From: Strigamia acuminata
Taxonomy: Eukaryota > Arthropoda > Chilopoda > Geophilomorpha > Linotaeniidae
NCBI GenBank assembly: GCA_949358305.1
Contig: OX442315.1
Location: forward strand, 11,434,427-11,498,426
Length of the DNA: 64,000 bases
Direction of reading: 5' to 3'
Shown in pieces: positions 27,474-61,910 of the stretch (positions are counted from its first letter, which is position 1; the number at the start of each line of letters is the position of its first letter). A program made the translations under genes and the position numbers. The notes beneath the pieces are model-generated. The model had not been told where the DNA came from. It was given only the letters and a program-made list of their open reading frames with translations, and ran no database searches.

Positions 27474-27901
27474 TCATGGTGAGTATAGAGTCCAAACAAT
27501 CGTTTCTGTTCCACTCGAACTGATTACTCGATAACCACTTGCTTCCAATTTATTTAAAACGACGCTAGGCGAATCATCCAGCTCGTAGTGATCACTGTTG
27601 TTGGAAAAGAAAAGAAAAAAATAAGAGGAAAATAAAAACTGGTATTGCAATTTGAACCAATTATTACGCTCTGACGGCGGTTTTAGGTGCGTGCGCCGAT
27701 GCCGATCTAAAGATTGCGTTGAGCTTTTCCATTAATTTCGGAGTGCTGGCGTCTTTATTGTCGTCAATTCTTAGCTTACTCCAATTATAGTATTCAGTAC
27801 TCCTATGCTATAAACAAATTATAATGAAAATAAAATACTGCAATTAAATAGACGGAACATTTTTTTACCTGTAAATTACAGTGCATTATCAAATACGGCA
27901 T
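27474..27901 (-). CDS. GCHFR: GTP cyclohydrolase I feedback regulatory protein, copy A
   Basis: GFRP binds GTP cyclohydrolase I and mediates its inhibition by tetrahydrobiopterin and stimulation by phenylalanine. Three exons: 27901-27869 (MPYLIMHCNLQ), 27807-27668 and 27594-27474, all GT-AG with matching phases (0, 2). The product is about 97 aa (vertebrate GFRP 84). The N-terminus matches the family MPYLL start. Exon 2 carries IDDNKD and PKLMEKL. Exon 3 carries DHYELDDSPSVVLNKLE, GYRVISSSG and VWTLY, matching the family YEYYVDDPP...LDKLE..G.RV..M.G..Q..VW.L core. The same three-exon layout as vertebrate GCHFR supports the call. Sister of copy I. The frame is intact. Confidence 0.88.
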
Positions 27902-27996
27902 CGTAAACGCTAATCCGTGTGACTGTTTGTTAAGAATAATGCTGTTCTTCTATTTTCTTACGAAAGTGGGTCGCCTCTGCAGTGTGTACAATAACG

Positions 27997-28033
27997 GGGA
28001 AAATCCCATTCAGGGTTACACTGCGCCTGCGCC
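27997..28033 (-). promoter_or_regulatory. Conserved promoter block of GFRP copy A
   Basis: GGGAAAATCCC at 27997-28007, 96 bases above the ATG, followed by TGCGCCTGCGCC at 28022-28033. The first fits Rel/NF-kB (Dorsal-type) sites and the second resembles NRF1 half-sites. The same pair recurs at nearly the same distance in copies C, D, E, I and J. Confidence 0.45.
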
Positions 28034-28397
28034 TCTGTGCATCTGCGCCACCTTGTGTCGGCACCACGATGCTGGGACATACGCACACCATATATTTACA
28101 TGTTGTATCGAATTTAGTAATTTACATGTACTCAATTATCTAGATTCGTGAAAATTGGATTTTTACCTGTGTGGAAAACTGATCATGTAAACAAACAGGT
28201 TTTCCAGAAAAGAATATGTGCGTTCAAAGTTTCGGTTCATTCCGTTTATGATAATGCCGTTTATAATAACGGCCAAAGCCGTAAGCAAAAACGTGCGTAA
28301 CCGTGAATGTGTTCATTTTTAGGCCCGTTTGTTGTATCATTTTTGCGTCGCGATTCGGGGATTCAACCCAGAATGTCTAATGCCAAAATGTCTAATA

Positions 28398-28962
28398 CAG
28401 TCGAAACTCTTTATAACGAATCGCGATATAACGAATTATCGATATAACGAATTGCTATAAATGATTTGGTTGGCCAGCCACAGAACATCATGTTAAGTAC
28501 TTTCGATATAACGAATTTCAATATAACGAATTATTCGTTATAACAAACAAGTTTTTGTGTACACTGTAATATCCACAAGCCTTTGTTATAACGAATTTTC
28601 AAAACTGATCACATGACTCACAACATCCGATGCCCATAAGCAAAGGAAAATCAAAATTTTCCTGTTTTAAAATGGCTGCCTTATCAATTTTGATTCAGGA
28701 CAAGTTGAACATTTTTAATGCTATTGACAATCACAAGAAGCCACCAATTGTAGCAGATGAGTTTAATTTGCCCTGTTCTACAATTTTCAACAATTTTAAA
28801 GAATTGGGATAAAATTGACATGAAACTTGCATGTCTATGAATAAATAATATTCTGTGTTTATGATAAAATTTAATTTTTTTACCTAATTCGTTTTAACAA
28901 ACTCTCGTTTTAACGAATCGATTTTCCGGTTCCTTGCGATTCGTTATAAAGAGTTTCGACTG
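28398..28962 (+). mobile_element. Pogo/Tigger-like non-autonomous DNA transposon
   Basis: Terminal inverted repeats CAGTCGAAACTCTTTATAAC and its inverse, about 28 bases, flanked by TA target duplications (28396-28397, 28963-28964); this is the pogo superfamily pattern. At 28630-28812 is a 60-codon frame whose segment SILIQDKLNIFNAIDNHKK to FNLPCSTIFNNFKELG fits the N-terminal CENP-B-type helix-turn-helix of pogo transposases. It then stops, so the catalytic DDE domain is missing. Total 565 bp. Confidence 0.75.
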
Positions 28963-29087
28963 TACCAAAATGTCTAAGCCGAAATGTCTAATGGACAAAA
29001 TGTCTAATCCAAAATGTCTAATGCCAAAAGCAAACAATGTCTAATGCCAAAAGCAAACAATGTCTAATGCCAAAAGCAAACAATGTC

Positions 29088-29183
29088 TATACTCTTTCCG
29101 AACTCAAGAAGAGCCCTGGAAGCTCCAAGTAGGCCAATGGGAGCCCAGCTTCCAGGGCTCTTCTTGAGTTCAGAAAGAGTATA
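29088..29183. mobile_element. Hairpin element with about 37-bp arms
   Basis: TATACTCTTTCCGAACTCAA and the rest of the left arm (29088-29124) is mirrored by 29147-29183 with few mismatches. The spacer contains CCAATGGGAG. The TATACTCTT start and CCAATGGGAG relate it to the MITE family at 16078 and 32728. Confidence 0.65.
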
Positions 29184-29900
29184 ATGCCAAAATGTTTAAT
29201 GAATCTAAAAATTTGACATACAAAAATTCATTCGGAATCGAATAATGCCAAAATGTCTAAGAAGTTTTCTTTTCTTTTTTTCTTACCTTATCCGTTTTTA
29301 GCAAAGTCGGCGAAATGAGGATTAACAGAAATAGCATATTAATTTTATTTCAAAAATTAGACATTTAAGTATTAGACATTTAGGTATTAGACATTTTCGA
29401 TTAGACATTTTGTCCATTAGACATTTTGCCCATTAGATATTTTGGATTAAACATTAACCATCCACATAACCACCCACATAAGTCTGGGAATCATATGCTT
29501 CCCAGACTTATTTGATTTCCTCAACCAGACAGCCATAAAAAATAAAACATAAAAATAACAATATTCAGACGCATTTCTGATAAGGAAAAATAATTTCAAC
29601 CCTTCGGTGACCACCGAGGTCACCGCAAAACATAATTTAACATTTACTCACATTTAGGGAGGTGGATCCTTCACCTGAAAGTGGTTAGGACATTGAAAGT
29701 TTGAACCGTTAATCCAAAGTTTGAGGCGGCCATTTTGAATTTGGTTGTAAAAACTAAAACTCGGCATAAACCGATTCATAAACCATTCCAGTCATGGTTT
29801 TGGTGGTTGCGGTTTGTGGTTATGCTTTATTTTGGCTGTTTTTGATGCCATAGAAACGGTAAAAACCGTAAAAATCAAAACTTTAAACGCGCCTAATGAC

Positions 29901-33064: not shown

Positions 33065-33488
33065 TTATTCTGCGTACAAAGTCCAAACCATCAAGGTTTC
33101 CACTCCACTCGAACCGATTACTCGATAACCATATTGTTCCAATTTCGTTATAAGGACGCTGGGCGAATCGTCGAGCTCGTAGTAATCACTTGTTGGAAAA
33201 GAAAAGAAAACAAATAAAAGGAAAAGAAAAACTGTCATTGGCATTTGAACCACTAGTTACTATTTGACGCTGGTTGCAGGATTGATCGTCGTTTTAAAAG
33301 TTGCTCCGAGGATTGCCATTAATTCCTTAGTGCGGACATCTTTATTGTCGTCAATTCTCATCATAGTCCAGTGGTGTCCTCCCTGCCAAAGCAATAAACT
33401 AATAATAATAAAAATTAAATACTGTAATGAAATAGAGGTAACATTTTCTTACTTGTAATATTTTACAGCGAATTATTAAACACGGCAT
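33065..33488 (-). CDS. GCHFR: GTP cyclohydrolase I feedback regulatory protein, copy B
   Basis: Three exons: 33488-33453 (MPCLIIRCKILQ), 33382-33261 and 33188-33065. Splice phases match (0, 2). The product is about 93 aa. Exon 2 includes WTMMRIDDNKDVRTKELMAI; exon 3 includes DYYELDDSPSVLITKLEQYG, YRVIGSSG and MVWTLYAE before TAA. It has the intact GFRP core. A cysteine replaces the family tyrosine at residue 3, as in copy F, its sister. The 5' flank has lost about 60 bases that hold the kB-like motif in other copies, and the TGCGCCTGCGCC motif is consequently only about 55 bases above the ATG. Role as for copy A. Confidence 0.88.
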
Positions 33489-34149: not shown

Positions 34150-34564
34150 TCATGGTGCGTATAGAGTCCAAACAATCGTTTCCGTTCCAGTCGAACTCAT
34201 AACTCGATAACCAATTCCTTCCACTTTATTTAAAACGACGATGGGTGGATCCATTAGTTCGTAGTATTCTCTGTTGTTGGAAAAGAAAAGAAAAAATAAA
34301 AGGAAAATAAAAACTGGTATTGCAATTTGAATAAATTGTTACTCTTGGCCGCCGGCTACAGGATTGTTGCTCTTTATAAGTGTACTCAAGTTTTCCATTA
34401 ATTTTGTAAAACGTGAGTCTGTATTGTTGTCAATTGTTGGCCGACCCCAGTGTTTTCCATCATGCTAAAACAATAAACAAATTATAATGAAATTAAAATA
34501 CTGCAATTAAATAGACGGGAAATTTTCTTACGTGCAGTTTACAGCGCATTAACAAATACGGCAT
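34150..34564 (-). CDS. GCHFR: GTP cyclohydrolase I feedback regulatory protein, copy C
   Basis: Three exons: 34564-34532 (MPYLLMRCKLH), 34464-34343 and 34270-34150. Phases agree and the ends are GT-AG. The product is about 91 aa. Exon 2 carries KHWGRPTIDNNTDSRFTKLM; exon 3 carries EYYELMDPPIVVLNKVEGIG, YRVMSSTG and IVWTLYAP. The LLM start is the closest in this locus to the vertebrate MPYLLI. It differs from A/I in the DPP motif (as in vertebrates) and in its exon 2 tail NPVAGGQE. Sister of copy G, and donor-type for exons 1 and 2 of D and E. Confidence 0.88.
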
Positions 34565-34818: not shown

Positions 34819-36023
34819 AACTGATCATGTAAACAAACTAGTTTTCCAGAAAAGACAGACTTTGGAAACCTAAATTCTAGTTGTACGAGATAGATTTTGG
34901 GCGTTTTGCACATTGAAAACTGCAAAGCAAACACGTGTGCGTGCGCAGAAGTGCCGTACAGACCTTGATACTTCGTAACCCTTATTAAAAATGGCACAAA
35001 TTATAAACAAAAACGATGTACGAAGTATTTGATAACACATTTTAATGCTTCTTGCTTTTGGAACAAGTGTTATCCAATACAAACTGAATTTGGTTTGTTT
35101 AGAAGTTGAAATTGCGTTTTGTCAATTTTATGAATTTATGTTCATCAAAAAAGGTTTTTTCTTGCCCTTTTTGTTCACTTTTGTGCATCTAAAAATAAAT
35201 TTTTACCTTTTTAGTCACTCCATTTTTGCACTTTTATATTGCATACGTGGAAAAAGCTTTTTTTGGGTTATTTTATCTGATTACAAGTCTAGACGTCTCG
35301 ATTTTTTACTTCATAAAAACAATGCATTTTTAATCAGACAATCATGACAATCAGACTATCATGTTTTTAAATTTAATTTTTCACCTGAACAACTAAAATA
35401 AGGTTGAATGTAATCAACTAGGCTTATTTACACAAGTTGTTTTATTTCAATTTCAAAATGACACCAAACCAAGAATCGAAATAATCAAATACATACTACT
35501 GAAACATTCCTGCTCAGAATCGCACCTCACGCCCTCTAGTAGCAATTATAGTGCTTTATGCATTAGTGCAATATGACTCAAAATCGAAGAAATATCGACT
35601 ACGGACACTTGCCACCTGACGCCCGACGTTTAAAGTTTTGGCAAAAAGGGGGAATCAGATGCCTGACACCTGACACCGGACAGTTAGTCCGGAATAGTCC
35701 AGGTGTTTACTGTTTAGTCCATCCCCATGCAAACACGGTAGATGTTTAGTAATGCTAAAACTCCTTCTAGATCGGACATACTGCGCCTTTGATTTGCCAC
35801 AGAGCAAATTTACGAGGTCCGATGCAAAATCCAAGTGTAGGGTCTTTGTGGATAAAATTATAAATTCAGAGGGAAGGGCCCCAAGAAGGGCTATGAAAAG
35901 AGCTCCCACAACAAAGACCACTACCGAATTTATATATATTTATTTATTTAATCATTGAAAACACTCACAGATAAATACACGTAAGGAATATACAAGTATT
36001 TGGACTGGTTGGAAGCCCGAGCT
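34819..36023. repeat. Segment duplicated at 49374-50578
   Basis: From AACTGATCATGTAAACAAAC through GGAAGCCCGAGCTTC the sequence is essentially identical to 49374-50578 (shift 14,555). Its right part, 35401-36023, also recurs at 47091-47713 (shift 11,690), so 35401 onward is present three times. It contains GFRP-unit flank, a relic of the orphan exon (around 35500-35560), and the 3' flank of copy D. No gene. Confidence 0.9.
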
Positions 36024-36431
36024 TCAGTGAAGCGAAGAGTACAAAGTCCAAACAATCCAGTTTTCCACTACACTCGAACAGATTACTCGATAACCCAAGT
36101 GTTCCAATTTCGAGAAAAAGACGCCTGGCGTATCATCACTGTTGTTGGAAAATAAAAAAAAAATAAAAGGAAAATAAAAACTGGTATTGCAATTTGAATA
36201 AATTGTTACTCTTGGCCACCGGCTACAGTATTGTTGCTCTTTCTAAGTGTACTCAAGTTTTCCATTAATTTTGTAAAACGTGAGTCTGTATTGTTGTCAA
36301 TTGTTGGCCGACCCCAGTATCTTCCATCATGCTAAAGCAATAAACAAATTATAATGAAATTAAAATACTGCAATTAAATAGACGGGAAATTTTCTTACGT
36401 GCAGTTTACAGCGCATTAACAAATACGGCAT
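36024..36431 (-). CDS. GCHFR: GFRP copy D, chimeric, with a 15-base deletion in exon 3
   Basis: Exons 36431-36399 (MPYLLMRCKLH), 36331-36210 and 36138-36024. The frame is open, about 89 aa. Exons 1 and 2 and their introns match copy C; exon 3 and the 3' flank match copy F. The switch falls in the intron-2 A-rich tract (about 36140-36175). Exon 3 reads DDTPGVFFSKLEHLGYRVIC and lacks the five residues Y-Y-E-L-D present in F; the 15 bases are missing between two GAT triplets. These residues lie in the conserved FYEYYVDDPP motif of the family, so function is doubtful. The C-terminus is altered to SSLH. Confidence 0.75.
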
Positions 36432-36526
36432 CTTAAACGTTAATACGTGGAACAGTCTGTTAAGAATAATGCTGTTCTTCTATTCTGTTACGAAAGTAGT
36501 TCGCCTATATAGTGTGTACAATCACG

Positions 36527-36565
36527 GGGAAAATCCCATTCAGGGTTACTCTGCGCATGAGCCTG
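36527..36565 (-). promoter_or_regulatory. Conserved promoter block of GFRP copy D
   Basis: GGGAAAATCCC at 36527-36537, 96 bases above the ATG, followed by CTGCGCATGAGCCTGCG. Same block as copy C. Confidence 0.4.
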
Positions 36566-36689
36566 CGTGCATCTGCGCCACCCTGTGTCGGCACCCCGAT
36601 GCTGGGACATACGCAAACCAATTATCATATTTACATGTCTTCACTTGTCTAGATAAGCGAAAATCGGAATTTAACCTTTGTGGAAAACT

Positions 36690-37684
36690 TGTCGCGCTCA
36701 ACTCGGTCTGTCGCTGATACGTGGTATGAGTCACTCTCTAATCTCGCAATACCGCTCTAATCAAGCGGTTACCCAAAGAATGTGAAACGGCAAACAATGT
36801 AAAAGGTAAATATAATAAATGTATTTATTATACGGGAATGTACAGGTAAAAGGTATAAAATATGTAAAGGAATAAGGGTAAAAGGTAAGGTGTGTGAAGT
36901 TGGCGGGAAACTGGTCGAGGTCGTCCTTTGTTGGTGCTCTGGATCCAAGATGGCGTCCGCGTGGCAACGTGGTGTCGTCTTGGGCCGGCGTGGCAATGAA
37001 TGGCGTCCTCGTCTCACGTTTCTCGTTCGGTCCTTCGGGCTCACGCTGGTCGGGCGCGAGTGAATGCCTAAAAGGTCTTACTTCTGGTCTGTTGTCTAGG
37101 TTTAGGGTTTTGTTTAGGTGTCCGGCGATCACACAGCGGCGGACGCTTGGTGGTTCCCGGCGATACACACAGCGGCGGGAACGCTCGTCGTGGTTACTGC
37201 AATTTAGGCTTGTGCGACCGTTTGTCTGCACAACTCGCTAAATTGGAGTAGGTTTACTATTTCTAGCTGGCTTGCTAAAATAGTGTGGTAATCTTGTTTC
37301 GCAGGTTACTCTGCGGAGGTTAACACAAATCAATCGTACTCACGTTGGAAGTCCCTTGTCCTAGGTCACTCCTGAAGTCTTTGTACTTAGGCTTGATCGT
37401 TTTAGGACGTTTGGCTTTTACGTGTATCTTGGTTGATTTTTGTGTTGGTTCTGCCCGCTCAGTGCAAGGCAAATTCCTTTGCACAAAGCGGGGGGTGACA
37501 GGTGACTAAAGCCACCCAATGGTGGAGAAGACGAATCTCCTCCACTCCCCCAGGGCAGACGCCCGTCCATTGACTGGATGTCAATGCTCTGAGGGAAGGG
37601 AGGCGCGCGTGCGACTCCCCCTCTTTACCCGTATGTAGGCCACGAGAGAAACTCTTCGTGCCCCACCCCAGTCGGGTCACCACA
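36690..37684 (-). repeat. 3' LTR of Ty3/gypsy element, 995 bp
   Basis: On the minus strand it starts TGTGGTGACCCGACTGGGG and ends GTTGAGCGCGACA, a TG...CA pair. The lower flank is AACT (36686-36689). The solo LTR at 48380-49373 has AACT on both sides, and copy C lacks the insert (GAAAACTGATCATG), which fixes the boundaries and a 4-bp target duplication. It differs from the solo LTR at only a few positions. Confidence 0.92.
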
Positions 37685-37696
37685 CGTCCCCCTCCC
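37685..37696 (-). other. Polypurine tract of the gypsy element
   Basis: On the minus strand GGGAGGGGGACG directly precedes the LTR start TGTGG. This is the expected primer site for plus-strand DNA synthesis and confirms that the LTR at 36690-37684 is the 3' one. Confidence 0.85.
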
Positions 37697-37723
37697 AGCT
37701 CTGACCGCGCGTGTTCGGAGCGA

Positions 37724-40700
37724 TCAATCCTTCTTGCTGGGACCCGACGCTGGATCCATCGCCTGGGCGAAACTCACTCCAGGAACGGGCGGCTCAGCGC
37801 CGGGCGGCACAACGCCGGGCGGCAAAACCAGATCTCCAACCAAGGCTGAAGACTGGTCGCGGGGGTCCTCGTGCTCGGAAATAAAGCACAATTCGTGGCC
37901 GCCGGCTGGCTCGTACGGGGCACGTCTCCTCTCATGCAGCCAAACCCGCGGAATGAACGCCGAAAACCCGGAATTGGTGTGCCGGATCGCGTTCGCCTCC
38001 GCGGCCGTTCGAGGCGCACGGTGGGCCCTCAGCAAACGCTGATGGAGGATCAAATCGGTGGTCTGGCGCACCTGGTTGTGTAGCCAAACAAATACCGATT
38101 TCCCTTTGTCTCTCTGCGCGAGGATGAATTTTCGCGTCGCACAGCTTTTCATAATAGTTTGTCTGAGGCTTCGCCGCTTTCGCTGGCTTGGCGCTCTTCG
38201 AAACTACCGCTTGCTGGACAGTCTCTTCCCGCGCTTGTTGGGCTGCGGGAGGCGTCAGGCTCTGGCGAGCGGCGGACATCGTTGGTGGCGTCCGACATAA
38301 CAAGCGTCTGGGCTTACCCGCCACATCTGATAGGACGGGTGTCTGTGGTGTCGCCGCTGGTGGCATCGGTGGCGGCGGCGGTGGTGGAGTTGGGGCTCCA
38401 CGTGAAGCAGTTGAAGAGGCGGTGTCGCTCTCCATCGGCTCTTCACTCGTGACCATCATTGCGTGTGACTGCGCTGATGGTGTTGGCTCCCACGTGGTAA
38501 CGGCGTGGCGGAAGGCCATGCTCCGCAACTTATACCCCTCCCATTCGGGGTTCACCACGTCCCGGGTCAGCTCGAAGCGAGTCATCGCCGGGTTGGGGAG
38601 AATGGCGCTCCATTCCCCAACGAGTGCGCGAGGTATCTGCACACCCTCTCTGTCTACTACGGACCAACAGGCCATCGCCTGTCGTCCGACCCCAAAGAGC
38701 GAGGGGGTCAATAACTGGACCATGATTTTTGTCAAAGCCAGCTATAGACTGCGCCGATTTACAGGGTTGCTGCGATCAGGATCTGCAGCGAACGCACGCG
38801 AGTGGTGTTGCATCATCGAGATCCCCCACTCGATAAAATGACGCTGCGTGACGTCGGCGCCCTGCAAAGCAGCGGCGGCGGCTCTCGGGTCCTCCATCAC
38901 AAACGAGAAGGCTAAGAGCTCTTCAATCGATGGATTGGCTGCTTCTCGCGCTAGCCTCGCGTTTTCATCACGCTGTTCATACCACATCGCTGTGCGGTCG
39001 TGTCTCGCCGAGCTCGGGTAATATTCTCCGAATCGGGCGTTATGGCATTCCCGCGCAATACTCAGGTGCACGGGCAACATCACAGAGTCGTCGACGGTCG
39101 GGTTCGGCGTGACACTCGAATCCGGCGGCGTCGGCGGCGGCGGGGGCTGCGTCGGCGGCGGCAGCAGCTGCGTCGGCGGCGGCAGCGTCAGGGACTGCTG
39201 TGCCGGCAGTGGTTGCGACGTCGATGGCTGCGTCGGCAACAGCAACGTCAAAGACTGTTGTGCTGGCGGTGGCAGCGTCGCTTGCACTCCAGTCGGCGTG
39301 ACTTGGAGTGCCGGGAGCTGGCTTACAGAACTCGTCGGTGGAACGACGGCCGTAGGTGCGTTTTCTACACGCGGTCGCGAATTGACATATTCGCTTAACC
39401 ACCGTGCCACCTCGTGTGGGATCACGGTACCATCCTCGACGATGCCCATCTTGCGGGCGAACTGCATCGCGGGGTCGAAACGCGACAATTTCTTGCGTTT
39501 CATCTGAGTGATGATCTCGCGAAGGTCCCGCGTGTCTGGCGCTAGGACTCGACGCTCCCCGGAAGATCTGCCACTCGACTTCGATCGTGCTTCTCTCGCC
39601 TCCTTCGCTTCTATTGCTTTGAGAGCGTGTTCGGGAAGGGGAATTCCCCGCGCCTCGCAGCGAGCGAAATACCGCTCTTTGCGGTCTTGTTTCCGCTGCT
39701 CACGATGAGTCAGCGGGCGTCTGCCGGCACGGGGACGAGAGACTCGCTCTTCGTCACCCGAAATCCAGACTTCTCGAGTCTCTTTACCGTCTTTCATCTG
39801 ACGGTTGACAAACACCCTTGGTCTGGTGTAATTCGCGGAGTCGCGCGGTGGCTGCGCTGACGTTCCCGCTCCATCGTTTACGGTCGAGTGCCTTTCGACG
39901 CACTGTTTCTTCGACCGGCCCGGGGAGCGCGATTCGCTGCCCCCGGTTCCCTTGGAGCGCTTGCGCTTCCTTGGGAAATTATATTTGGGGCCGAGAATTC
40001 CCAAATAATGTAACTGCCACATTTCGGCTTGTGACGTGAGAATCCCCATTCTCGGTCGCCACTGTGGCGTAACTTCTCCCTGCCGAATCTGCTCGCACCA
40101 CAGGTGTATATCGGCGGTGCTCATTCCGTCGTCTTGCAAAATCCGCTCTGCAACCGCCGGCGCAGTGTCAATTAGCTGCTGGCGGTAGTGTTGATACACT
40201 TCTTCGCGGGCCTCCTCGGTCTCGGCCGCTTGCCACGCGAACAACACATGCTCCTCCACTGGCCTGCCGGAGTATTGGCTCGACAGGGCCGAGTGGAAGA
40301 TTGGTGACTTCGGGTCATCGCTGCGAGCGAGCTCTGTAGTGACAACTGCTCGAACCGACTCCGGAAACGCGTCCAGGAGTGTACAGTCGTTAACCCAACG
40401 CTTGGCGAGGGCGCGCGAAAATAATACGCGCAGGCGGTATGGCTTTGCATCTTCGCCAAAGCAGCGGCGCAGAAAATCGGGCAGTACGCCTCGATAAATG
40501 CCCGCTCGCACTATGCATGCGAGGCTGAGCGCTCCCCACGTGTTTCGGAGCTCCATCTGTAATGATGGAAACAAAATAATTAATAAAATCGCCAATAACA
40601 CGGAGATAAATAGGGGGTGGGCTCGAGGAACGTCGCTGAAACGTGCGGCCGTTCGTCGAGTCCTATTCCTGTTCATTGATTCGTCCTTGTCAGGAAGAAA

Positions 40701-40742
40701 GAGTCTTCTTGGCACATCTGGCTCACGTCCAATGATAGCCAC
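37724..40742 (-). pseudogene. Third coding region of the gypsy element, unknown function, interrupted
   Basis: A 666-codon frame (40742-38742) ends at TAG. The same frame continues at once for another 267 codons (to 37932), and near 38150 the coding character shifts to another frame that runs to 37724, so one long protein of about 1,000 residues seems to have been broken by one stop and one frameshift. Visible features: a hydrophobic segment near residues 43-60 (ISVLLAILLIILFPSL), a basic stretch (PRKRKRSKG) near 255, a Lys/Arg/Glu-rich middle, and a Pro/Gln-rich tract near 500-560. It is downstream of pol, where env lies in errantiviruses, but the hydrophobic segment is N-terminal and no envelope signature is visible. 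I do not recognise the family. Confidence 0.6.
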
Positions 40743-41908
40743 GAGACGGAATCAGGCATCTTAATCCGGAAATTCTCTTCGGATTATTTAATATTTAAAA
40801 TTAATGTGTAATAAATTAAATAAACTCGCGAAATCGTTCGTGAAAATTCCAAATGACATTTTTAGAACATGTAAATAAATGTTCTTGTCGTACAAATAAA
40901 TTTATCTAATAATAACTCCAAAATTCGGAGTTAAAGTCGAGTTAAAAACGAATCTAAAATAAATTTGTGTCATCGGAAAAATTCGCAAATAAAATAACGA
41001 ATAAAAATAGAAAACAACGTTCTATAAATTATTCCAAAATCTACCCAATAAATTAGTCCCATTCCTGGGAATATAAAAAGAAAGCTCGTTTCCTTTGTCT
41101 CGTTCGTGTCAATTGTCGTGAGTCATTTTCAAGGAGCGAGGCGACATTAAGTCTGCGATCGCGTCCTTGAAAACAAACAATAAGGAGAAAATACAATCGC
41201 TTGCGCAATCGTGGATATTAGTATAATAATTATACACTATTTCGAACGCAGAGCGTTCATGTCAAGTATTAGTCAAGTGTATCTTTAATTCAACCGCACG
41301 GAGCTAAATCTCGTGCGGCGATGCCGACTACTACCTGATCGGGTGGAACCACGTTAACGTCCTGGTCCCAATTTTCGTTTGCATTCTGCTCGATTTCAAG
41401 CATTTCCTCGTCCCCTCCTTCCTCAGCCATCGTGAGGATTGCGCGTTCAGTCAGACCACGATAAAAAAACTTAAAACTCCTCGTAAAATGGATCAAAAAC
41501 TCGGTTAAAAATAAACTCGATGTGTATCACGTGCGGACGACGATCAGCTGATTTAGCGGAAGTCCGGGTGAAAACGAGGCTATCGTGGTGGGTTCTGGGT
41601 AATTTTACTCCAGAACCAGGTGTTTATGACTTGTGCGCAGCAGCCCGTGCGCATGTTACGCTACGGGGCTCCTTTGTTTCTACACCCGTGCGCGATCGCT
41701 GCTACGGGGTCTTTTGCACGCGGTATCCGACCCGTGCCGATAATTTTGCTACGGGTCCCGCGTTTCCACGCCATCTTGTGACGTGAATTCGACCGATATC
41801 CGCTTTGTTGGACTTAGCGAAATTTTCAGAGTCTCGGATTTTGATGGCTAGCGCTGTCGATCGGTTATTTTTTTTGTTTTCAGCGTCGCCATCGACTCGT
41901 AACGTTTT
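40743..41908 (-). other. Spacer between pol and the third coding region
   Basis: About 1.17 kb inside the retroelement. It contains a 68-codon acidic frame (41496-41290, includes EEGGDEEMLEIEQNANENWD) that could be a small exon or leader. The 40760-41280 part is AT-rich, unlike the rest of the element. No known domain. Whether the third coding region is expressed by splicing or a separate promoter is not visible. Confidence 0.4.
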
Positions 41909-44900
41909 CTACTCCTTTCCTACGACCTTTCCGTCTTTTATAAACGGATTACTTCTACGGGGCCGCAGGTGATGGGCTAAGACAGGTACGATATTTTTTG
42001 TTGTTTTTTGTGTCTGTACCTCCTCATGTGTATTTCTTTTTTTATCCGTGTTTTTTGTGTTTGTTTCAGGAGTTTCTCCTGTTTCCCCCCCGACCAAAAT
42101 TGGATCCGGAACGGATTCAACTATCTCGTTTACAGGAGGTGAAGGGGCGTCGAAATACTCCTCGTTGTCACTTGGCGGTGCTTTTTCCGACTCGCCAGCG
42201 AACATATCGACGATTTGGCCGTCAGTTTTAGACTTGACTTGGCCTTTGGCCCACATTTCTTGCGGGAATTCCGGAATGTACGGAGTTAACTCTCGTACTT
42301 GTATCGATTTATGCTCGGTATTGTCCTCGAGCTTACGTAATTTATACGCGTTACCGCCATGCTTGTCGATGATCACATACGGACCGTCTCTTTTGTCGGC
42401 CAAGCTGGCGGTGATTCCTCTCGCTGCATTTGAGAGGATGTGTGTGTCCTTCCACACTAAGTCATTGATCTCGAAATTCACAAATTTTCTACCGCTTTTA
42501 TCTTCTAAAATGCGGTCGCGCATGTTAAAAATGTGCGCCATCATATGCTTGTATGTGCTCGAAATTGTTTGTTCCAATTTATACACGTACTCATGTGGTT
42601 TCTCAGGGTCCACCACATTTACCGACTCTGCCACTCGTGGGTCCCAAGGCACTCGTAGCTCCCGGGCGAAGTTGAGGTAGGCCGGAGAAAAATCTCTCGT
42701 CCTCGAGACTGTTGTTCGTATGCTGAACGCGATCTCCCTCAAGTATTCATCCCACCTATTGTGGATGTCAGTGAATATACTTAATGCATATTTGATATCC
42801 CTGTTGAGTCGCTCAACGGGATTTGTTCTGGGATTGTAGGTCGAAGTATGTGACGCCACAATCCCGAATTTCTCACAAAACTTACCCCAAATTTTCGAGA
42901 TAAATTGGGGTCCGTTATCGGATATTATTTTACGTGGAAATCCGTAACGTAACGCTACGTCGTAGATACATTCAACGATTTTCTCTGCTGAAGGTCTAGC
43001 GACGGCGTACAACTCGGGCCAACGAGTTGCTACGTCCATTATAACGATAATGTACGCATTTTTATTTCCCGTAACGGGTTTTGGGCCCATCACATCGACA
43101 CTTAAACAATCAAAAGGTGCGTAAGGCCCTAAGAAAATAGTTTCGAATGGTGATTTACTCCTCGGCTTGCACGCTTGACATCGCTGACATTGGTGGACAA
43201 AAAGAGCAATATCTTTTTTCATCCCTGTCCAGTGAAAAAGCTGTGTAGCACGATAGAGTGTTCTGCTTACTCCCGCATGGCTCGCAAGCGGGTGCCCGTG
43301 TAACAACCACAGCACGCGACCGATTAAGGAAGCAGGTATTACTACCTTTACTGCGGTGTCCGATTCACTCAAGTCATCTTGGTGATTTGGGTGATGTTTC
43401 ACCAAAAGGCCGTCATCCAATAGGTAATCTATGGATTCGTGTGCATAACGACGCTTCTGCCTTCTGGTTAAGTTGGGCGGATATTTTCCTGTCAGTACGA
43501 ACTTAGCTCTATCCTGACATTTCTTGTCCAATTTTTGTTGCACAATTATTTCCTCCCTTGTCGGGGGATTGCTTCGCATTTGCTTGCCGACATGAGCGTG
43601 GAAGGCGCTTAGAAGCGGGTCATTTATTCTCCGCTCTAGCTTAAATTCCTTCTTTGCATTTGGGTAATTGTCAGCAGCTGGTTGGTATAACCGCGTCCAA
43701 AATCCACAGAATTTTACATCTGCCGGAGACGCGGTAGGAATTTCATTCATTTTCCTTAAATCCCAACGGTGACAACTCGTCGGGCAGTAAATGATGCGGG
43801 AATCATCCTCGCCATCATCGTCAGCGTCGATAGGATCTGACACTGGTGCCCGTGACAGAGCATCAGCCACGACGTTATATTTGCCGGGCTTGTATTGAAT
43901 GGTCAAGTCGCATGCCATCAGTTCTAACTGCCATCTGGCTAGTCGACCGGCTGGCTCCTTTAATTTCATCAGCCATTGTAACGCTTGATGATCTGTGTGG
44001 ACTACAAATTTGGTATATTCGAGATAATCTCTGAATTTCCTTATGGCCCACACAACGGCCAAACACTCCAACTCTGTGGCGTTGTAATTTTTTTCAGCGC
44101 CTTGGAGTTTGCGACTTATAAACATGCACGGCAGGTCTTGTTCGACTCCGTCGCGCACGTGTGTTTGGAGCAACGCCGCTCCTAACCCAACTCTGCTGGC
44201 GTCCGTATGTAATATGAACGGCCTGTTTAAGTCGGGTAGAGGCATTACGCCGACTTCCGTCAGCATCCTCTTTATCGCATTAAATGCGATGTTGCACTCA
44301 TTTGACCAAACAAATTCGTTTTCATTCTTCAGGAGGTCGGTAACTGGGGCTGCCACTTCAGCTAGACCCGGTAGCAACCTGCCGAAGAAGTTTATCATTC
44401 CCATAAACCGTTGGACACCTTTAACGTCCTCGGGTGGTGGGAAACGATCAATCGCATCGATTTTTTCGGGGCCAATAGCTAAACCATTGACTCCAATGCG
44501 ATAACCCAGGAAGGCAAGCTCCTTTCGACAGAACTTGCTCTTGCCCGGGTGAACGTGTAACCCAGCTTTTGCCAGCCGGGTGAGCACTTGGTCGATGTGC
44601 TCAATGTGCTCTTCAAATGTTTTTGAGGCGATGACAATGTCATCTAAGTATGCTCACACAAACTGATGCAATATATCACCCAATACGCTCTCGATTAGTC
44701 TCTGAAAGGTACTGGGAGCATTCACTAAGCCAAACGGCATGACGTTGAACATCAACCGTCCAATTGGCGAGTAAAATGCTGTTTTTAGCTTATCTTCTGG
44801 CCTCATCTCAACTTGCCAGTATCCCTTCGACAGATCCATCGTCGTAACCCAAGAAAAGGGGCTAAGCTCTCTCAAAATGGATTCGATAGACGGCATCTGT

Positions 44901-45982: not shown

Positions 45983-46005
45983 GAATGGCGCAGACGGTCG
46001 AGAAG

Positions 46006-47073: not shown

Positions 47074-47713
47074 CAGCTCGACAATAAATAAGGTTGAATG
47101 TAATCAACTAGGCTTATTTACACAAGTTGTTTTATTTCAATTTCAAAATGACACCAAACCAAGAATCGAAATAATCAAATACATACTACTGAAACATTCC
47201 TGCTCAGAATCGCACCTCACGCCCTCTAGTAGCAATTATAGTGCTTTATGCATTAGTGCAATATGACTCAAAATCGAAGAAATATCGACTACGGACACTT
47301 GCCACCTGACGCCCGACGTTTAAAGTTTTGGCAAAAAGGGGGAATCAGATGCCTGACACCTGACACCGGACAGTTAGTCCGGAATAGTCCAGGTGTTTAC
47401 TGTTTAGTCCATCCCCATGCAAACACGGTAGATGTTTAGTAATGCTAAAACTCCTTCTAGATCGGACATACTGCGCCTTTGATTTGCCACAGAGCAAATT
47501 TACGAGGTCCGATGCAAAATCCAAGTGTAGGGTCTTTGTGGATAAAATTATAAATTCAGAGGGAAGGGCCCCAAGAAGGGCTATGAAAAGAGCTCCCACA
47601 ACAAAGACCACTACCGAATTTATATATATTTATTTATTTAATCATTGAAAACACTCACAGATAAATACACGTAAGGAATATACAAGTATTTGGACTGGTT
47701 GGAAGCCCGAGCT

Positions 47714-48121
47714 TCAGTGAAGCGAAGAGTACAAAGTCCAAACAATCCAGTTTTCCACTACACTCGAACAGATTACTCGATAACCCAAGTGTTCCAATTT
47801 CGAGAAAAAGACGCCTGGCGTATCATCACTGTTGTTGGAAAATAAAAAAAAAATAAAAGGAAAATAAAAACTGGTATTGCAATTTGAATAAATTGTTACT
47901 CTTGGCCGCCGGCTACAGTATTGTTGCTCTTTCTAAGTGTCCTCAAGTTTTCCATTAATTTTGTAAAACGTGAGTCTGTATTGTTGTCAATTGTTGGCCG
48001 ACCCCAGTATCTTCCATCATGCTAAAGCAATAAACAAATTATAATGAAATTAAAATACTGCAATTAAATAGACGGGAAATTTTCTTACGTGCAGTTTACA
48101 GCGCATTAACAAATACGGCAT
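47714..48121 (-). CDS. GCHFR: GFRP copy E, near-identical to copy D
   Basis: Exons 48121-48089, 48021-47900 and 47828-47714. It differs from D by two substitutions in exon 2 (one silent in a glycine codon, one Ser to Arg change in the LST of D). It carries the same 15-base exon 3 deletion and the same C/F chimeric structure, so the D/E chimera formed before the copy was made. If the 35.4-49.4 kb duplication is an assembly artefact, D and E are alleles of one gene. Confidence 0.75.
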
Positions 48122-48216
48122 CTTAAACGTTAATACGTGGAACAGTCTGTTAAGAATAATGCTGTTCTTCTATTCTGTTACGAAAGTAGTTCGCCTATAT
48201 AGTGTGTACAATCACG

Positions 48217-48255
48217 GGGAAAATCCCATTCAGGGTTACTCTGCGCATGAGCCTG
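48217..48255 (-). promoter_or_regulatory. Conserved promoter block of GFRP copy E
   Basis: GGGAAAATCCC at 48217-48227 and CTGCGCATGAGCCTGCG, identical to copy D. Confidence 0.4.
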
Positions 48256-48379
48256 CGTGCATCTGCGCCACCCTGTGTCGGCACCCCGATGCTGGGACAT
48301 ACGCAAACCAATTATCATATTTACATGTCTTCACTTGTCTAGATAAGCGAAAATCGGAATTTAACCTTTGTGGAAAACT

Positions 48380-49373
48380 TGTCGCGCTCAACTCGGTCTG
48401 TCGCTGATACGTGGTATGAGTCACTCTCTAATCTCGCAATACCGCTCTAATCAAGCGGTTACCCAAAGAATGTGAAACGGCAAACAATGTAAAAGGTAAA
48501 TATAATAAATGTATTTATTATACGGGAATGTACAGGTAAAAGGTATAAAATATGTAAAGGAATAAGGGTAAAAGGTAAGGTGTGTGAAGTTGGCGGGAAA
48601 CTGGTCGAGGTCGTCCTTTGTTGGTGCTCTGGATCCAAGATGGCGTCCGCGTGGCAACGTGGTGTCGTCTTGGGCCGGCGTGGCAATGAATGGCGTCCTC
48701 GTCTCACGTTTCTCGTTCGGTTCTTCGGGCTCACGCTGGTCGGGCGCGAGTGAATGCCTAAAAGGTCTTACTTCTGGTCTGTTGTCTAGGTTTAGGGTTT
48801 TGTTTAGGTGTCCGGCGATCACACAGCGGCGGACGCTTGGTGGTTCCCGGCGATACACACAGCGGCGGGAACGCTCGTCGTGGTTACTGCAATTTAGGCT
48901 TGTGCGACCGTTTGTCTGCACAACTCGCTAAATTGGAGTAGGTTTACTATTTCTAGCTGGCTTGCTAAAATAGTGTGGTAATCTTGTTTCGCAGGTTACT
49001 CTGCGGAGGTTAACACAAATCAATCGTACTCACGTTGGAAGTCCCTTGTCCTAGGTCACTCCTGAAGTCTTTGTACTTAGGCTTGATCGTTTTAGGACGT
49101 TTGGCTTTTACGTGTATCTTGGTTGATTTTTGTGTTGGTTCTGCCCGCTCAGTGCAAGGCAAATTCCTTTGCACAAAGCGGGGGTGACAGGTGACTAAAG
49201 CCACCCAATGGTGGAGAAGACGAATCTCCTCCACTCCCCCAGGGCAGACGCCCGTCCATTGACTGGATGTCAATGCTCTGAGGGAAGGGAGGCGCGCGTG
49301 CGACTCCCCCTCTTTACCCGTATGTAGGCCACGAGAGAAACTCTTCGTGCCCCACCCCAGTCGGGTCACCACA
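48380..49373 (-). mobile_element. Solo LTR of the same gypsy family
   Basis: A 994-bp LTR flanked by AACT on both sides (48376-48379 and 49374-49377), inserted at the same point of the GFRP unit as the 3' LTR at 36690. No internal sequence. This is the standard product of recombination between the two LTRs of a full element. Confidence 0.92.
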
Positions 49374-50578: not shown

Positions 50579-51144
50579 TCAGTCTGGCGAAGAGTACAAA
50601 GTCCAAACAATCCAGTTTTCCACTCCACTCGAACAGATTACTCGATAACCGTAGTGTTCCAATTTCGAGAAAAAGACGCCTGGCGTATCATCCAGCTCGT
50701 AGTAATCACTGTTGTTGGAAAATAAAAAAAAAATAAAAGGAAAATAAAAACGACCATTGGCATTTGAACCACACGTTACTATTTGAGGCCGGTTGCAGGG
50801 TTGATTTTCAAGGTTATTCTGAAGATACCCATTAATTCCTCAATGGGGGCATCTTTATTTGCCACAGAGCAAATTTACGAGGTCCGATGCAAAATCCAAG
50901 TGTAGGGTCTTTGTGGATAAAATTATAAATTCAGAGGGAAGGGCCCCAAGAAGGGCTATGAAAAGAGCTCCCACAACAAAGACCACTACCGAATTTATAT
51001 ATATTTATTTATTTAATCATAGTCCTGTGGTTTCCTGGCTGCTGTAATAATTAACAAATAATAATGAAAATTAAATACTGTAATGAAATAGAGAGAACAT
51101 TTTCTTACTTGTGATATTCTACAGCGAACTATTAAACACGGCAT
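50579..51144 (-). pseudogene. GCHFR: GFRP copy F, exon 2 disrupted by a local insertion
   Basis: Exon 1 (51144-51109, MPCLIVRCRISQ) and exon 3 (50708-50579: DYYELDDTPGVFFSKLEHYG, YRVICSSG, IVWTLYSS) are intact and GFRP-like. Exon 2 keeps only its 3' part (50857-50780: NKDAPIEELMGI). Its 5' part has been replaced by about 163 bases (50857-51019) copied from 50345-50508, so the exon 2 acceptor and first codons are lost. Sister of copy B. Exon 3 is the probable ancestor of exon 3 in D and E, before the 15-base deletion. Confidence 0.85.
50857..51019. repeat. Templated insertion copied from 50345-50508
   Basis: TTTGCCACAGAGCAAATTTA through TTTATTTAATCAT is repeated exactly from about 500 bases to the left. 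Compared with copy B, about 14 bases of exon 2 are deleted at the site, and both junctions show short shared sequence (TTTATTT and ATCAT). Confidence 0.85.
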
Positions 51145-52064: not shown

Positions 52065-52489
52065 TCATGGTGCGTATAGAGTCCAAACAATCGTTTCCAT
52101 TCCACTCGAACTCATTACTCGATAACCAATTCCTTCCAATTTATTTAAAACGACGCTGGGTGGATCCATTAGTTCGTAGTATTCACTGTTGTTGGAAAAG
52201 AGAAGAAAATGAATAAAAGGAAAATAACAACTGTTACCGTATTGCAATTTGAATAAACTGTTACTCTTGGCCGCCGGTTACAGGATTGTTGCTCTTCATA
52301 AGGATTGAACTGAAGTTTTCCATTAATTTTTTAATACGTGAGTCTGCATTGTTGTCAATTGTTGGCTGACCCCAGTGTTTTCCATCATGCTAAAGCAATA
52401 AACAAATTAGAATGAAATTAGAATACTGCAATTACATAGACGGAACATTTTCTTACGAGCAGTTTACAGCGCATTAACAAATACGGCAT
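52065..52489 (-). CDS. GCHFR: GTP cyclohydrolase I feedback regulatory protein, copy G
   Basis: Exons 52489-52457 (MPYLLMRCKLL), 52389-52265 and 52185-52065, with matching phases. The product is about 92 aa. Exon 2 has one codon more than in C (SSILMKSNNPVTGGQE region). Exon 3 carries EYYELMDPPSVVLNKLEGIG, YRVMSSSG and IVWTLYAP. The frame is intact and the product is close to C. In its promoter the kB-like site has decayed (GCGAAATCCC) while the TGCGCATGCGCC motif at about 52606 is the most complete of all copies. Confidence 0.88.
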
Positions 52490-54017: not shown

Positions 54018-54696
54018 TCATTTAGTATGTGCTGATACGGAAAGTGTGCCTGAGTAGGGCGGTTCTTCTTTGCCTGAGTAGAGCGATTCTTTTTTGCCTG
54101 AGTAGGTCGATTCTTTTTTGCCTGAGTAGGTCGATTCTTTTTTGCCTGAGTAGGTCGATTCTTTTTTGCCTGAGTAGGGCGATTCTTTTTTGCCTGAGTA
54201 GGGCGATTCTTTTTTGCCTGAGTAGGTCGATTCTTCTTTGCCTGAGTAGGGCGATTCTTCTTTGCCTGAGCAGGGCGATTCTTCTTTGTACAGAGTCCAA
54301 ACAATCGTGCTTGCCGCTCCACTCGCACCGATTACTCGATAACCAGATTGCTCCAAGTGAGACAAAACCGCGCCGGGTGCTTCGCAGATCTCGTAGAAAT
54401 GGCTGTCATTGAGAAATAGAAATAAAAATAAAAATACTGTCATTGCAATGTGGACCACTGATTACTGATGGACGCCAGTAGTCTGATTGCTCGCCGTTAC
54501 ACAGTTGGCTCCGAGTTCCGTCATTAATTTCGGCATGGAATCGTCTTTATTGTCGTCAACTCTCGTCAAACTCGCGTACCCTCCTTCCTAAAACAATAAA
54601 CAAATAATTAAAATAATAAAATAGTATATCTGTGAATAATTAGGCGAAACATTTTCCTACGGGAGATACTTGACAGCGAATTATCAAATATGGCAT
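54018..54696 (-). CDS. GCHFR: GFRP copy H with a repetitive C-terminal extension
   Basis: Exons 54696-54661 (MPYLIIRCQVSP), 54587-54466 and 54402-54018, with phases and splice ends correct. Core: LTRVDDNKDDSMPKLMTELG in exon 2; HFYEICEAPGAVLSHLEQSG, YRVIGASG and IVWTLYKE in exon 3. The family ends here, and indeed ends in KE in vertebrates, but the frame continues through ten 8-residue repeats (consensus KxES-P/T-YSG) to TGA at 54018. About 181 aa in all against about 92 for its neighbours. The tail is rich in Lys, Glu, Ser and Tyr. It sits in the 3' end of exon 3, so no splicing change is needed. Sister of copy J. Confidence 0.82.
54045..54290 (-). repeat. 24-bp tandem repeat encoding the copy H tail
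   Basis: Ten units of 24 bases (plus-strand core GCCTGAGTAGGTCGATTCTT), with variation at fixed positions (G/T in GGGC or GGTC, C/T in TTCTTC or TTCTTT). The period is a multiple of three and all ten units keep the frame open from the GFRP core. Confidence 0.95.
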
Positions 54697-56879: not shown

Positions 56880-58552
56880 GCCGACCAATCAGGATGGAGT
56901 GCATACATATATAAAGTGTTTATTATTTTAAATTATCTTACAACTATCAACAATCATCTGCAGTCGCGTTGTATCATTTCCGACCTATCAGTGCATAATT
57001 CAAGATTTAGAACCGAAATAACGATCGTGAAAGTTAAAACGTTTTTGACGAAGATCGAAAATCCACGAAGCCAATAAATTATGACGACTGGAAGCGGAAG
57101 TTCGGTGAAAATCGAAGAATTGGGAAAAGATATCTTCGATTCATGGAAAATCAACATGGAAGCGACCATGTTAATAAATCGAATGAGTTCACACAATATA
57201 GCCGAAGGTAAAAGCGTACGAGACCATTTAAGAGAATTTTTCGACGCAGCCGACACATTGAACGAAATGGGCCTAACAATTCATCCTACCATCACAGCAA
57301 AATTGCTGCTGAATAGTCTGCCGAATTCCTACTTCCGATGCGCGATCGAAAACCTTGACGAATTACCAAAACCGGAAGAGCTGAAAATCATGATCATCGA
57401 ACATTTGGACGCAGTCGAAAAGAGAAACTTAGGTTGAAAAGGTGGTGTTTGGACAGCGGAGCAAATTCACACTTCTGTTCGAACGAATCTAGATTTTCAG
57501 AAATCGAATTCGGTGAAAACTGGAAGCTGGACTCAGATGGTGCTGCCTGGGAATCGGAATCGGAAATTATTAACGGAATAGGAACAGCCCAAATTCTCGT
57601 CAAAAGTAAGAACGGAATTGTGAATTTGATCTTAGAAAATACGGTGCTCATGTGGAATATTCCAGATTACATTATATCTGTCGGAGGTATCACCGATAAT
57701 GGATACAAAGTATTGTTCGACGACAAAGTCGCAGAAATCATAAATCCGGAAGGACAAATTGCGTTTACGGCAAAACGGAAGCGAGACGGATCATATTACA
57801 TCATTGACCAAAGCGCAAAACAAGTCGAAACGATAACTCAAGCTAACATCGAAATAAAAATTGTACCAAAACCGGAAGTGCTGGAAATTATGAAAGAATC
57901 AGACGCACACGGCGAACGAAACGAAACGGCGTTAAAAAGCGAGAAACCAAAGTCGGAAATATGGTGTTTGGACAGCGGAACAGATTCACACTGTTGTTCG
58001 AACAAATCGACCTTTTCAAAAATCGAATTAGTTGAAAACCGGGTGCTGATAATGGCTGATAACAAGCGATTAGGAATTATTGGAATAGGAACAGTCAAAA
58101 TTCTTGTCAAAAGTGAGAACGGAATTGTAAATTTGAACTTAGAAGAAACGCTGCTCGTGCCGGATTTACGAACGAATTTGTTATCTGTCGGAAAGATCAC
58201 CGATAATGGATACAAAGTATTGTTCGACGACAAAGTCGCAGAAATCATAAATGCAGAAGGACAAATTGTGTATACGGCAAAACGGAAGAAGAGAGACAGA
58301 TTATATTACATCAGCGACCAAAGCGCAAAACAAGTCGAAACGACAACTCAAGCGGAAATCGAAACAGGAATACTTTTCTTTTTATTTTTCTTTTTTCTTC
58401 TTCTTTTGACCGACGCATGTTGTTGGCTATTTCTAGTCCACCCTTTTGCATTTTTTCTGCGAATTGTAGTATTATTTTCTTTGTGTTGCACATTTGCATT
58501 TATTGGTAATGTAATTTCTTTTTGTCATCCTGGTTTAACTGTTAAGAGTTGA
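56880..58552 (+). pseudogene. Decayed Ty1/copia fragment with duplicated protease-like module
   Basis: 57081-57437 encodes a copia-type Gag piece (VRDHLREFFDAADTLNEMGL, LLLNSLPNSYFRCAIE, DELPKPEELK) in which the expected stretch after NMEATMLINRM is missing, an internal deletion. A second frame from 57434 holds WCLDSGANSHFCSN and about 170 codons later WCLDSGTDSHCCSN, each followed by the same GITDNGYKVLFDDKVAEIIN or GKITDNGYKVLFDDKVAEII block. These are two tandem copies of the copia protease and its downstream segment. There is no integrase, reverse transcriptase or recognisable LTR. The C-terminus runs into hydrophobic low-complexity sequence. A TATATAAAG at 56909 could be an old promoter. 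Confidence 0.75.
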
Positions 58553-59540: not shown

Positions 59541-59825
59541 TCACAAACTCCCTCTAGATCGGACATACTGCGCCTTTGATTTGCCACACAGAAAATTTGT
59601 TAGGTCCGGTGCAAAATCCGAGTGTGGGGCCTTTGTGGATAGATTTATAGATTCAAAGGGAAGAGTCCAAGAAGGGCTGTATAAAGAGCTGCCACAACAC
59701 AGACCACTACCGTCAATAAATTAATGAATTACTTTATTTATTTAATCATTGAAAACACTCAAATATGAATACATCACACGGAATATACATGTGTTTGGAC
59801 TGGCTGGAAGCCGACGGGGAGGGCT

Positions 59826-60245
59826 TCATGGTTTGTATAGAGTCCAAATAATCGTTTCCATTGAACTCGAACTGATTACTCGATAACCACTTCCTTCCAA
59901 TTTATTTAAAACGACGCTGGGCGAATCATCCAGCTCGTAGTAATCCCTGTTGTTAGAAAAGAAAAGAAAAAAATAAGAGGAAAATAAAAACTGGTGTTGC
60001 AATTTGAACCAAATGTTACTCTCTGACGCCGGTGAAAGGATTCTGCTCCGATCTAAAGATTGCGTTGAGCTCTTCCATTAATTTCGGAGTGCGGGCGTCT
60101 TTATTGTCGTCAATTCTTAGCTTACTCCAGTGCTGTCTAGACTGCCGATTCTATAAAAAAAATTATAATGAAAATAAAATACTGCAATTAAATAGACGGA
60201 ACATTTTCTTACCAGTATTTTACAGTGCATTATCAAATACGGCAT
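59826..60245 (-). CDS. GCHFR: GTP cyclohydrolase I feedback regulatory protein, copy I
   Basis: Exons 60245-60213 (MPYLIMHCKIL), 60150-60020 and 59946-59826, phases correct. The product is about 94 aa. Exon 2 carries HWSKLRIDDNKDARTPKLME; exon 3 carries DYYELDDSPSVVLNKLEGSG, YRVISSSS and IIWTLYKP. The frame is intact. Sister of copy A, sharing the longer exon 2 start and the RIDDNKD..TPKLME motif. Confidence 0.88.
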
Positions 60246-60340
60246 CGTAAACGCTAATCCGTGTGACTGTTTGTTAAGAATAATGCTGTTCTTCTATTTC
60301 CTTACGAAAGTGGGTCGCCTCTGCAGTGTGTACAATAACG

Positions 60341-60378
60341 GGGAAAATCCCATTCAGGGTTACACTGCGCATGCGCCT
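60341..60378 (-). promoter_or_regulatory. Conserved promoter block of GFRP copy I
   Basis: GGGAAAATCCC at 60341-60351, 96 bases above the ATG, then CTGCGCATGCGCCTGCG. The TGCGCATGCGC is a full NRF1-type palindrome. Confidence 0.45.
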
Positions 60379-61486
60379 GCGTGCATCTGCGCCTCCCTGT
60401 GTCGGCACCACGATGCTGGGACACATGTACACAATTATCATATTTACATGTACTCAGTTATCTAACTATTAAGTGAAAATCGGAATTTGACCTTTATGGA
60501 AAACTGATCACGTGAACAAACCAGTTTTCCAGAAAAGACAGACTTATTTGGAAAACTAAATTGTAGTTGTACGAGATAGATTTTAGGCGTTTTGCACATT
60601 GAAAACTGCAATGCAAACACGTGTGCAAGCGCAGAAGTGCCGTACAGACCTTGATACTTCGTAACCCTTATTAAAAATGATACAAATTATAAACAAAAAC
60701 GATGTACGTGGTATTTGATAACACATTTTAATGCTTCTTGCTGTTGGAACAAGTGTTATCCAATACAAGCTGAATTTGGTTTGTTTAGAAGTTGATTGAA
60801 ATTGTATTTTGTCAATTTTATGAATTTATGTTCCTAAAAAAAGGTTTTTTCTTGCCCTCTTTATGAACTTTTGTGCATCTAAAAATGAATTTTCACCTTT
60901 TTATATTCACTCCATTTTTGTACTTTTCTATTGCTTACATAGAAAAAGCTTTTTTCGGTTTATTTCATTTGATCATTTGTATCAGACCGAAATCGAACCG
61001 AAGTTTGACCCAATCCTTGACCGGTAACCTGAATACAAGCTTATTGATTAATGCTAAAAACTCTCTCCAGACCACAGGCCGTTTTTCACACACAATAGAC
61101 CATTGGAAAATTATGACATAATGCAGTTTGGCTCTGCCCACAATAAGAAAACTACAAATTAACAATGTTAATTTGCAATGGTTTTTCTCATACAGGGAGT
61201 GCAACCATTGTTACAATCACATGATCGTATCACCGACCACATTTTTCCAAAGGTCTATTGCAGCCAACAATACGAATCCTATTGGTGTGGGGCCTTTGTG
61301 GATAGATTTTTCCATTCAAAAAGAAAAGCTGTGAAAAGCGCTCCCACAACACAGACCTCTACCGCCAATTAATTTATTCATTCATTCATTCATTTATTTA
61401 TTTATTTGAAACATTCAAAGATGAATATACATTGTACGGTAAGGAATGTCCATGCGTTTGGAGGAAAGAAGCGTGCGCCGGGCGTT

Positions 61487-61910
61487 TTATGCGTGGTTCA
61501 AAGTCCAAATAATCGTGTTTGCTACTCCGCTCGAACCGATGACTCGATAACCACGTTTTTCCAACTCGGTTAAAAAGACGCCGGGTGTATCCACCGCTTC
61601 GTAGTAATATTCCCTGACCCTGTTAATGAAAATGACGAGAAAAAAATATAAGGAAAAAAAAAACTCATTGCAATTTGAACCACTTGTTACAGTGTGTCGT
61701 TGGAATAAAAATTGGGCGGACGAATACAGCTGGCACCGAGATCTGCCATTAATTTCCGAGTACACTCGTCGTAAGTGGTGTCAATTCTTGTCAAACTCGT
61801 GTAATCTCCACTCTAAAACAATAAACAAATAAAAATAAAAAACTGCATATAATTAGGCGGAACATGTTTCTTACGGGTGATATTTGACAGCGCACTATCA
61901 AATAAGGCAT
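61487..61910 (-). CDS. GCHFR: GTP cyclohydrolase I feedback regulatory protein, copy J
   Basis: Exons 61910-61875 (MPYLIVRCQISP), 61812-61691 and 61619-61487, phases correct. The product is about 96 aa. Exon 2 carries DYTSLTRIDTTYDECTRKLM and a distinctive tail (IRPPNFYSNDTL); exon 3 carries EYYYEAVDTPGVFLTELEKR, GYRVIGSSG and IIWTLNHA before TAA. The EYYYEAVDTP motif is the nearest here to the vertebrate EYYVDDPP. Sister of copy H. Its ATG is 434 bases from the ATG of the divergent ankyrin-repeat gene. Confidence 0.88.

Follow-up and report, generated by a model that had tools for sequence, protein, structure and literature searches.

Ten GFRP-type genes in a local array of the centipede Strigamia acuminata, possibly re-purposed under diversifying selection

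Introduction

The GTP cyclohydrolase I feedback regulator (GFRP) sets the supply of tetrahydrobiopterin (BH4). As described in the available part of PMC7750480, human GFRP acts as a pentamer on the decamer of GTP cyclohydrolase I (GCH1), and R235 of GCH1 bonds to the backbone of L40 of GFRP in the complex. A preliminary description of the locus reported here held that GFRP is usually single-copy in animals, in agreement with the available portions of two papers: most teleosts are described as having a single gchfr and salmonids as having a pair (PMC1890551), and GFRP as having one orthologue in C. elegans and none in Drosophila (PMC4423366). In this study, ten GFRP-type genes are described on the minus strand at 27474-61910 of a window, the whole stretch of 64,000 nucleotides that was analysed (C3:11434427-11498426, contig OX442315.1 of GCA_949358305.1), from the centipede Strigamia acuminata. 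The array is carried by chromosome 2, an autosome of 37.79 Mb according to the available text of PMC10556566.

Searches covered the whole genome assembly (157 contigs, 237,517,015 bases); positions given without a contig are those of the window. The array copies appear not to be merely extra GFRPs: the core of the protein is kept while surface loops change unusually fast, which suggests re-purposing. Our best explanation, to which we give not quite an even chance, is that the array is a re-purposed family with the GFRP fold that may be evolving under diversifying selection.

Family membership and genomic setting

Genome-wide profile searching with PF06399 located 11 matches. Ten of them are minus-strand matches within the window; the eleventh lies at C3:122854. 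The ten genes had been placed on one strand in the preliminary description, and the ten third exons, all scoring over the curated cut-off, bear this out. Units were numbered G1 to G10 in order of decreasing coordinate; the array ends coincide exactly with the stop codon of G10 (27474) and the ATG of G1 (61910). Spliced products of eight array copies were run against Pfam together with the ordinary GFRP, leaving out G7 (99% like G6) and the unspliced G5. All eight scored above the PF06399 threshold (E 1.3e-15 to 1.6e-7), as the initial assignment to the family had predicted, and one product matched four PDB GFRP sequences (E 7.8e-7 to 7.5e-6). In a protein tree constructed without G5 and G7, the array formed one clade (support 100) with a stem of 1.48 substitutions/site, adjoining the ordinary copy (support 95). 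Judged from their sequences, the array copies are true GFRP homologues.

The match outside the window is a conserved, ordinary GFRP on the same chromosome, 11.3 Mb from the array, which had been overlooked before. Its gene has the same three-exon layout as the array copies and encodes 84 amino acids; the product matches PF06399 over its full length (101.5 bits, E 2.1e-29) and shares 59% identity with a nemertean GFRP. A whole-genome search for GCH1 gave four exon matches, all at a single locus on C1. The C-terminal region of this gene, which includes GVFREDPKTREEFLTLIRN, looks conserved. The local family of ten arose from one GFRP gene; elsewhere, the genome retains an ordinary GFRP and one GCH1 locus. 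A search for PTPS gave a single match; it lies on C5, and the matching stretch contains in-frame stops.

Conserved residues and loops

A reference alignment of 28 GFRPs was composed of 26 of 40 database matches, human GFRP and the ordinary centipede copy. G20, G74 and Q75 were present in 28/28 references and in 0/9 intact array copies, and were likewise absent in a separate alignment of eight copies. T17 showed the same distribution in the main alignment (28/28 and 0/9), a result that depends on the alignment, as G1 has T in the eight-copy version. The G.GQ[TS] motif was found in 39 of the 40 database matches, a list that leans towards conserved proteins because it was selected by shared words. 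The exception, P0159, lies outside the 28-GFRP set; it is a divergent GFRP-like protein with KGELW instead of the GQT motif. Nine residues were kept in all nine intact copies: D21, D25, M29, P53, E61, G64, Y65, V67 and W79.

Inserts in the array proteins were located at positions 10-16, 22-25 and 38-45, which map to loops in the GFRP fold as predicted for a nemertean protein (mean predicted local distance difference test score, pLDDT, 95.2). The loop that corresponds to human L40, the contact with GCH1, is lengthened and altered in the array and contains fast-changing codons. Among codons with a posterior above 0.8 for positive selection, 16/19 were in loops or inserts, compared with 27/74 of the others (p = 0.0002); several of the favoured codons fall in the loop by which human GFRP contacts GCH1.

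These observations bear on the possibility that the array encodes altered but working regulators of GCH1. These would either assemble with the ordinary GFRP into mixed pentamers or bind GCH1 while being insensitive to phenylalanine, and BH4 synthesis would thereby be tuned or blunted in particular tissues or stages. Such a role was the original idea, worded as several regulators for one enzyme. It accords with the true GFRP homology and retained core, with the single GCH1 locus and its conserved C-terminal region, with the separate upstream region of each copy, where a GCGCA.GCGCA-type motif occurs in 9/9 intact copies, and with the pentamer-on-decamer action of human GFRP as described in the available part of PMC7750480. 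However, Q75 and G74 are lost, the loop that touches GCH1 R235 through L40 in human has received inserts and fast-changing codons, and a single conserved enzyme offers no obvious cause of diversifying selection. Since the lost residues, the changes in the GCH1-contact loop and the support for selection given below all make several GCH1 regulators less likely, we consider this explanation unlikely; of the earlier interpretation, the GFRP family, the local expansion and the single GCH1 locus stand.

Selection and frame upkeep

Divergence and selection were analyzed in eight copies, without the broken G5 and the near-copy G7. Mean divergence was 0.17 and 0.20 for the two introns, 0.24 for the promoter stretch, 0.23 for exon 1, 0.29 for exon 3 and 0.51 for exon 2. 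Models M1a and M2a were compared using a purpose-written codon model. For exons 1-2 (52 codons), twice the log-likelihood difference (2dlnL) was 13.4, with omega 3.4 at 41% of codons, and for exon 3 (41 codons) it was 10.9, with omega 3.7 at 22% of codons. Restriction to gap-free columns gave 13.5 and 8.9, respectively, and the whole coding region of seven copies, excluding the chimera G6, gave 22.95. Null simulations reached the observed value in 0/57 and 0/56 cases. Nonsynonymous sites exceeded non-coding flanks in 5/7 pairs (p < 0.05).

Several points weigh against re-purposing under diversifying selection. Taken alone, the 31 codons of exons 1-2 that align best gave a 2dlnL of 4.34, which is not significant, so that the signal stems in part from a stretch of exon 2 that varies freely and where the alignment is least sure. 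Comparison G1-G3 showed no such nonsynonymous excess over flanks, and in G4-G8 the order was reversed (0.065 versus 0.113). Synonymous sites also exceeded flanks in two pairs (p < 0.05); gene conversion or intron constraint may therefore enlarge the contrast between exons and flanks. The lists of favoured sites rest on plain posterior probabilities above 0.8. Finally, no signal peptide was evident by eye in the array proteins, and no partner was evident.

Could the copies instead be decaying or nearly neutral duplicates, produced by unequal crossing-over and of little or no function, in which omega near 1 reflects relaxed constraint? The overall omega of 1.15 (exons 1-2) and 0.99 (exon 3) would be expected in that case, and the broken G5, the lack of YYEL in G6 and G7, the retrotransposon insertions within the array and the result for the 31-codon subset point the same way. 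Yet the frames are open in 9/10 copies, whereas the chance of at least nine under neutral substitution is 7.5e-6 or less, an estimate that considers substitutions only and treats the copies as independent though they are not fully so. Pairwise differences in exon length were multiples of three in 94/108 cases, the other 14 being single-base entries that by inspection represent a 6-base indel cut by a column limit, whereas intron indels of 1, 2, 5, 7, 10 and 11 bases followed no such rule. In addition, the core residues are invariant, and null simulations at omega 1 or below missed the observed likelihood gain. Decay is unlikely in our estimation.

Gene models

Spliced models with GT..AG introns gave open frames of 89-180 amino acids in nine units (G1-G4 and G6-G10), confirming the nine open copies reported initially. 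Each intact unit consists of three exons separated by introns of 61-79 bp in phases 0 and 2, which is the layout of the ordinary GFRP gene, as had been proposed from the exon arrangement. A start of the MPYLL type had been given for the array as a whole and holds for four copies (G4, G6, G7 and G8); G1, G2, G3 and G10 start with MPYLI, and G5 and G9 with MPCLI. A 268-bp DNA query from G2 matched at ten places, all within the array.

All genes are on the minus strand, and exons are given here in the order of transcription. G1 (61487-61910; exons 61910-61875, 61812-61691 and 61619-61487) encodes 96 amino acids, and G2 (59826-60245; exons 60245-60213, 60150-60020 and 59946-59826) encodes 94. G3 (54018-54696; exons 54696-54661, 54587-54466 and 54402-54018) encodes 180 amino acids; its C-terminal tail, fused to the GFRP-like domain, consists of repeated ESPYSGK-type units (54018-54290, minus strand) with a 24-bp period by eye. 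G4 (52065-52489; exons 52489-52457, 52389-52265 and 52185-52065) encodes 92 amino acids. In the broken copy G5 (50579-51144), exon 1 begins at 51144 and exon 3 at 50708; exon 2 is interrupted by 167 bp (50854-51020) that duplicate the 3' flank of the array itself. G6 (47714-48121; exons 48121-48089, 48021-47900 and 47828-47714) and its near-identical duplicate G7 (36024-36431; exons 36431-36399, 36331-36210 and 36138-36024) each encode 89 amino acids. G8 (34150-34564; exons 34564-34532, 34464-34343 and 34270-34150) encodes 91 amino acids, G9 (33065-33488; exons 33488-33453, 33382-33261 and 33188-33065) encodes 93, and G10 (27474-27901; exons 27901-27869, 27807-27668 and 27594-27474) encodes 97.

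The GC-rich GCGCA.GCGCA-type motif is located 69-131 bp 5' of the ATG in the intact copies and presumably resembles an NRF1 site. AATAAA was found at most 160 bp past the stop codon in 7/9 intact copies. The GC-rich core of the array's upstream region has a 57-bp match (82%) at C1:23141585-23141640, far from any GFRP match, and no GFRP-like frame was found among the frames listed for that neighbourhood.

Array dynamics

From its upstream region to the end of intron 2, G6 matches G8 at 94-100%, and beyond that point it matches G5 at 88-100%. On these identities, determined for G6, G6 and G7 are chimeras with a G8-like 5' part and a G5-like exon 3. A duplicated segment on the minus strand, comprising G7, its downstream spacer and a long terminal repeat (LTR) at about 36690-37683, extends over 35396-37684. 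Its partner, with G6, the downstream spacer and an LTR at about 48380-49372, extends over 47086-49373, likewise on the minus strand, and repeats the first segment over 2289 bp at 99.8% identity (3 mismatches, 1 gap). Exon exchange and recent duplication make this an active array.

The region 36690-49372 contains a Ty3/gypsy-type retrotransposon on the minus strand, with gag, protease-reverse transcriptase and RNase H-integrase frames; the frame 38742-40751 inside it has no Pfam match. The LTR measures about 993 bp and has TG..CA ends, a target duplication of 4-5 bp and a purine tract beside the 3' LTR. As 2.3-kb direct repeats flank the retrotransposon, capture of a GFRP gene, with G6 and G7 lying within LTRs, was considered and rejected because the LTR proper lies upstream of each gene and the duplication junction at 47086 cuts through the gag frame. 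The simplest order of events would be insertion of an LTR element, followed by tandem duplication and then by LTR-LTR deletion of one internal part.

Neighbouring sequences

An ankyrin-repeat gene (62336-63406, plus strand) adjoins the array in the opposite direction. A Pol_BBD frame (Pfam pol polyprotein domain) at 57359-58552 on the plus strand carries an internal duplication of about 430 bp. Exons at 13241-21788 on the minus strand look like those of an autophagy gene of the RB1CC1/FIP200 type, one of them with a weak match to ATG17_like (E 2.4e-5, below the curated cut-off). Long tandem repeats of low complexity, in which several frames are open, occur at 13855-15362 and 5455-6187. Elsewhere in the assembly, COX1 on the 15,068-bp mitochondrial contig reads TGA as Trp; among the best 120 of 7999 matches to it, the nearest named sequence was that of another geophilomorph, Mecistocephalus marmoratus (84%).

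Discussion

As deduced from sequence, the pattern of the array fits new binding partners better than the tuning of one conserved enzyme. For a re-purposed GFRP-fold family, the following scheme can be proposed. The array proteins would still fold as pentameric discs of the GFRP type, and the feedback role that depends on phenylalanine and BH4 would be left to the ordinary GFRP copy. The ten-gene family may then provide a varied set of small binding scaffolds, the loops of which would track a changing partner. As to that partner, one might guess at a protein of a parasite, gamete or selfish element, or at some variable partner in the host. Gene conversion and unequal crossing-over would keep generating new loop combinations. 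One may go further and suppose that, in one lineage of centipedes, a metabolic regulator under strict conservation was turned into an exon-shuffling multigene family of variable binding discs; these would act in recognition or conflict and would employ the former GCH1-docking loop as a variable contact surface; this more specific proposal is doubtful, though worth stating.

Searches of an open-access library gave no paper on an expanded GFRP family, as judged by titles and abstract starts. As far as those searches go, an array of ten genes that has lost conserved residues and shows positive selection would be an undescribed fate of GFRP. The array constitutes a natural variant set for asking which residues tie GFRP to GCH1 and phenylalanine, and lets one ask if a fast-evolving family of binding proteins can be built on the scaffold of a metabolic sensor.

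Like the gchfr duplicates of salmonids, as treated in the available part of PMC1890551, the centipede genes are a case of an animal that carries GFRP in more than one copy. The salmonid genes number two and are ascribed there to tetraploidisation, whereas the centipede has a local array of ten with altered sequence. Compared with ordinary GFRP (PF06399), the array is alike in the MPYL start, protein size, exon layout and phases, core residues and Pfam match, but differs in its ten copies, the loss of G20, G74 and Q75, the loop inserts and the support for diversifying selection. Snake venom phospholipases are a tandem gene family in which exons change faster than introns. In contrast to these, the array derives from a cytosolic metabolic regulator and has no secretion signal seen by eye; it resembles them in that introns and flanks are more similar than exons, in the exchange of exons and in omega values above 1 at many sites.

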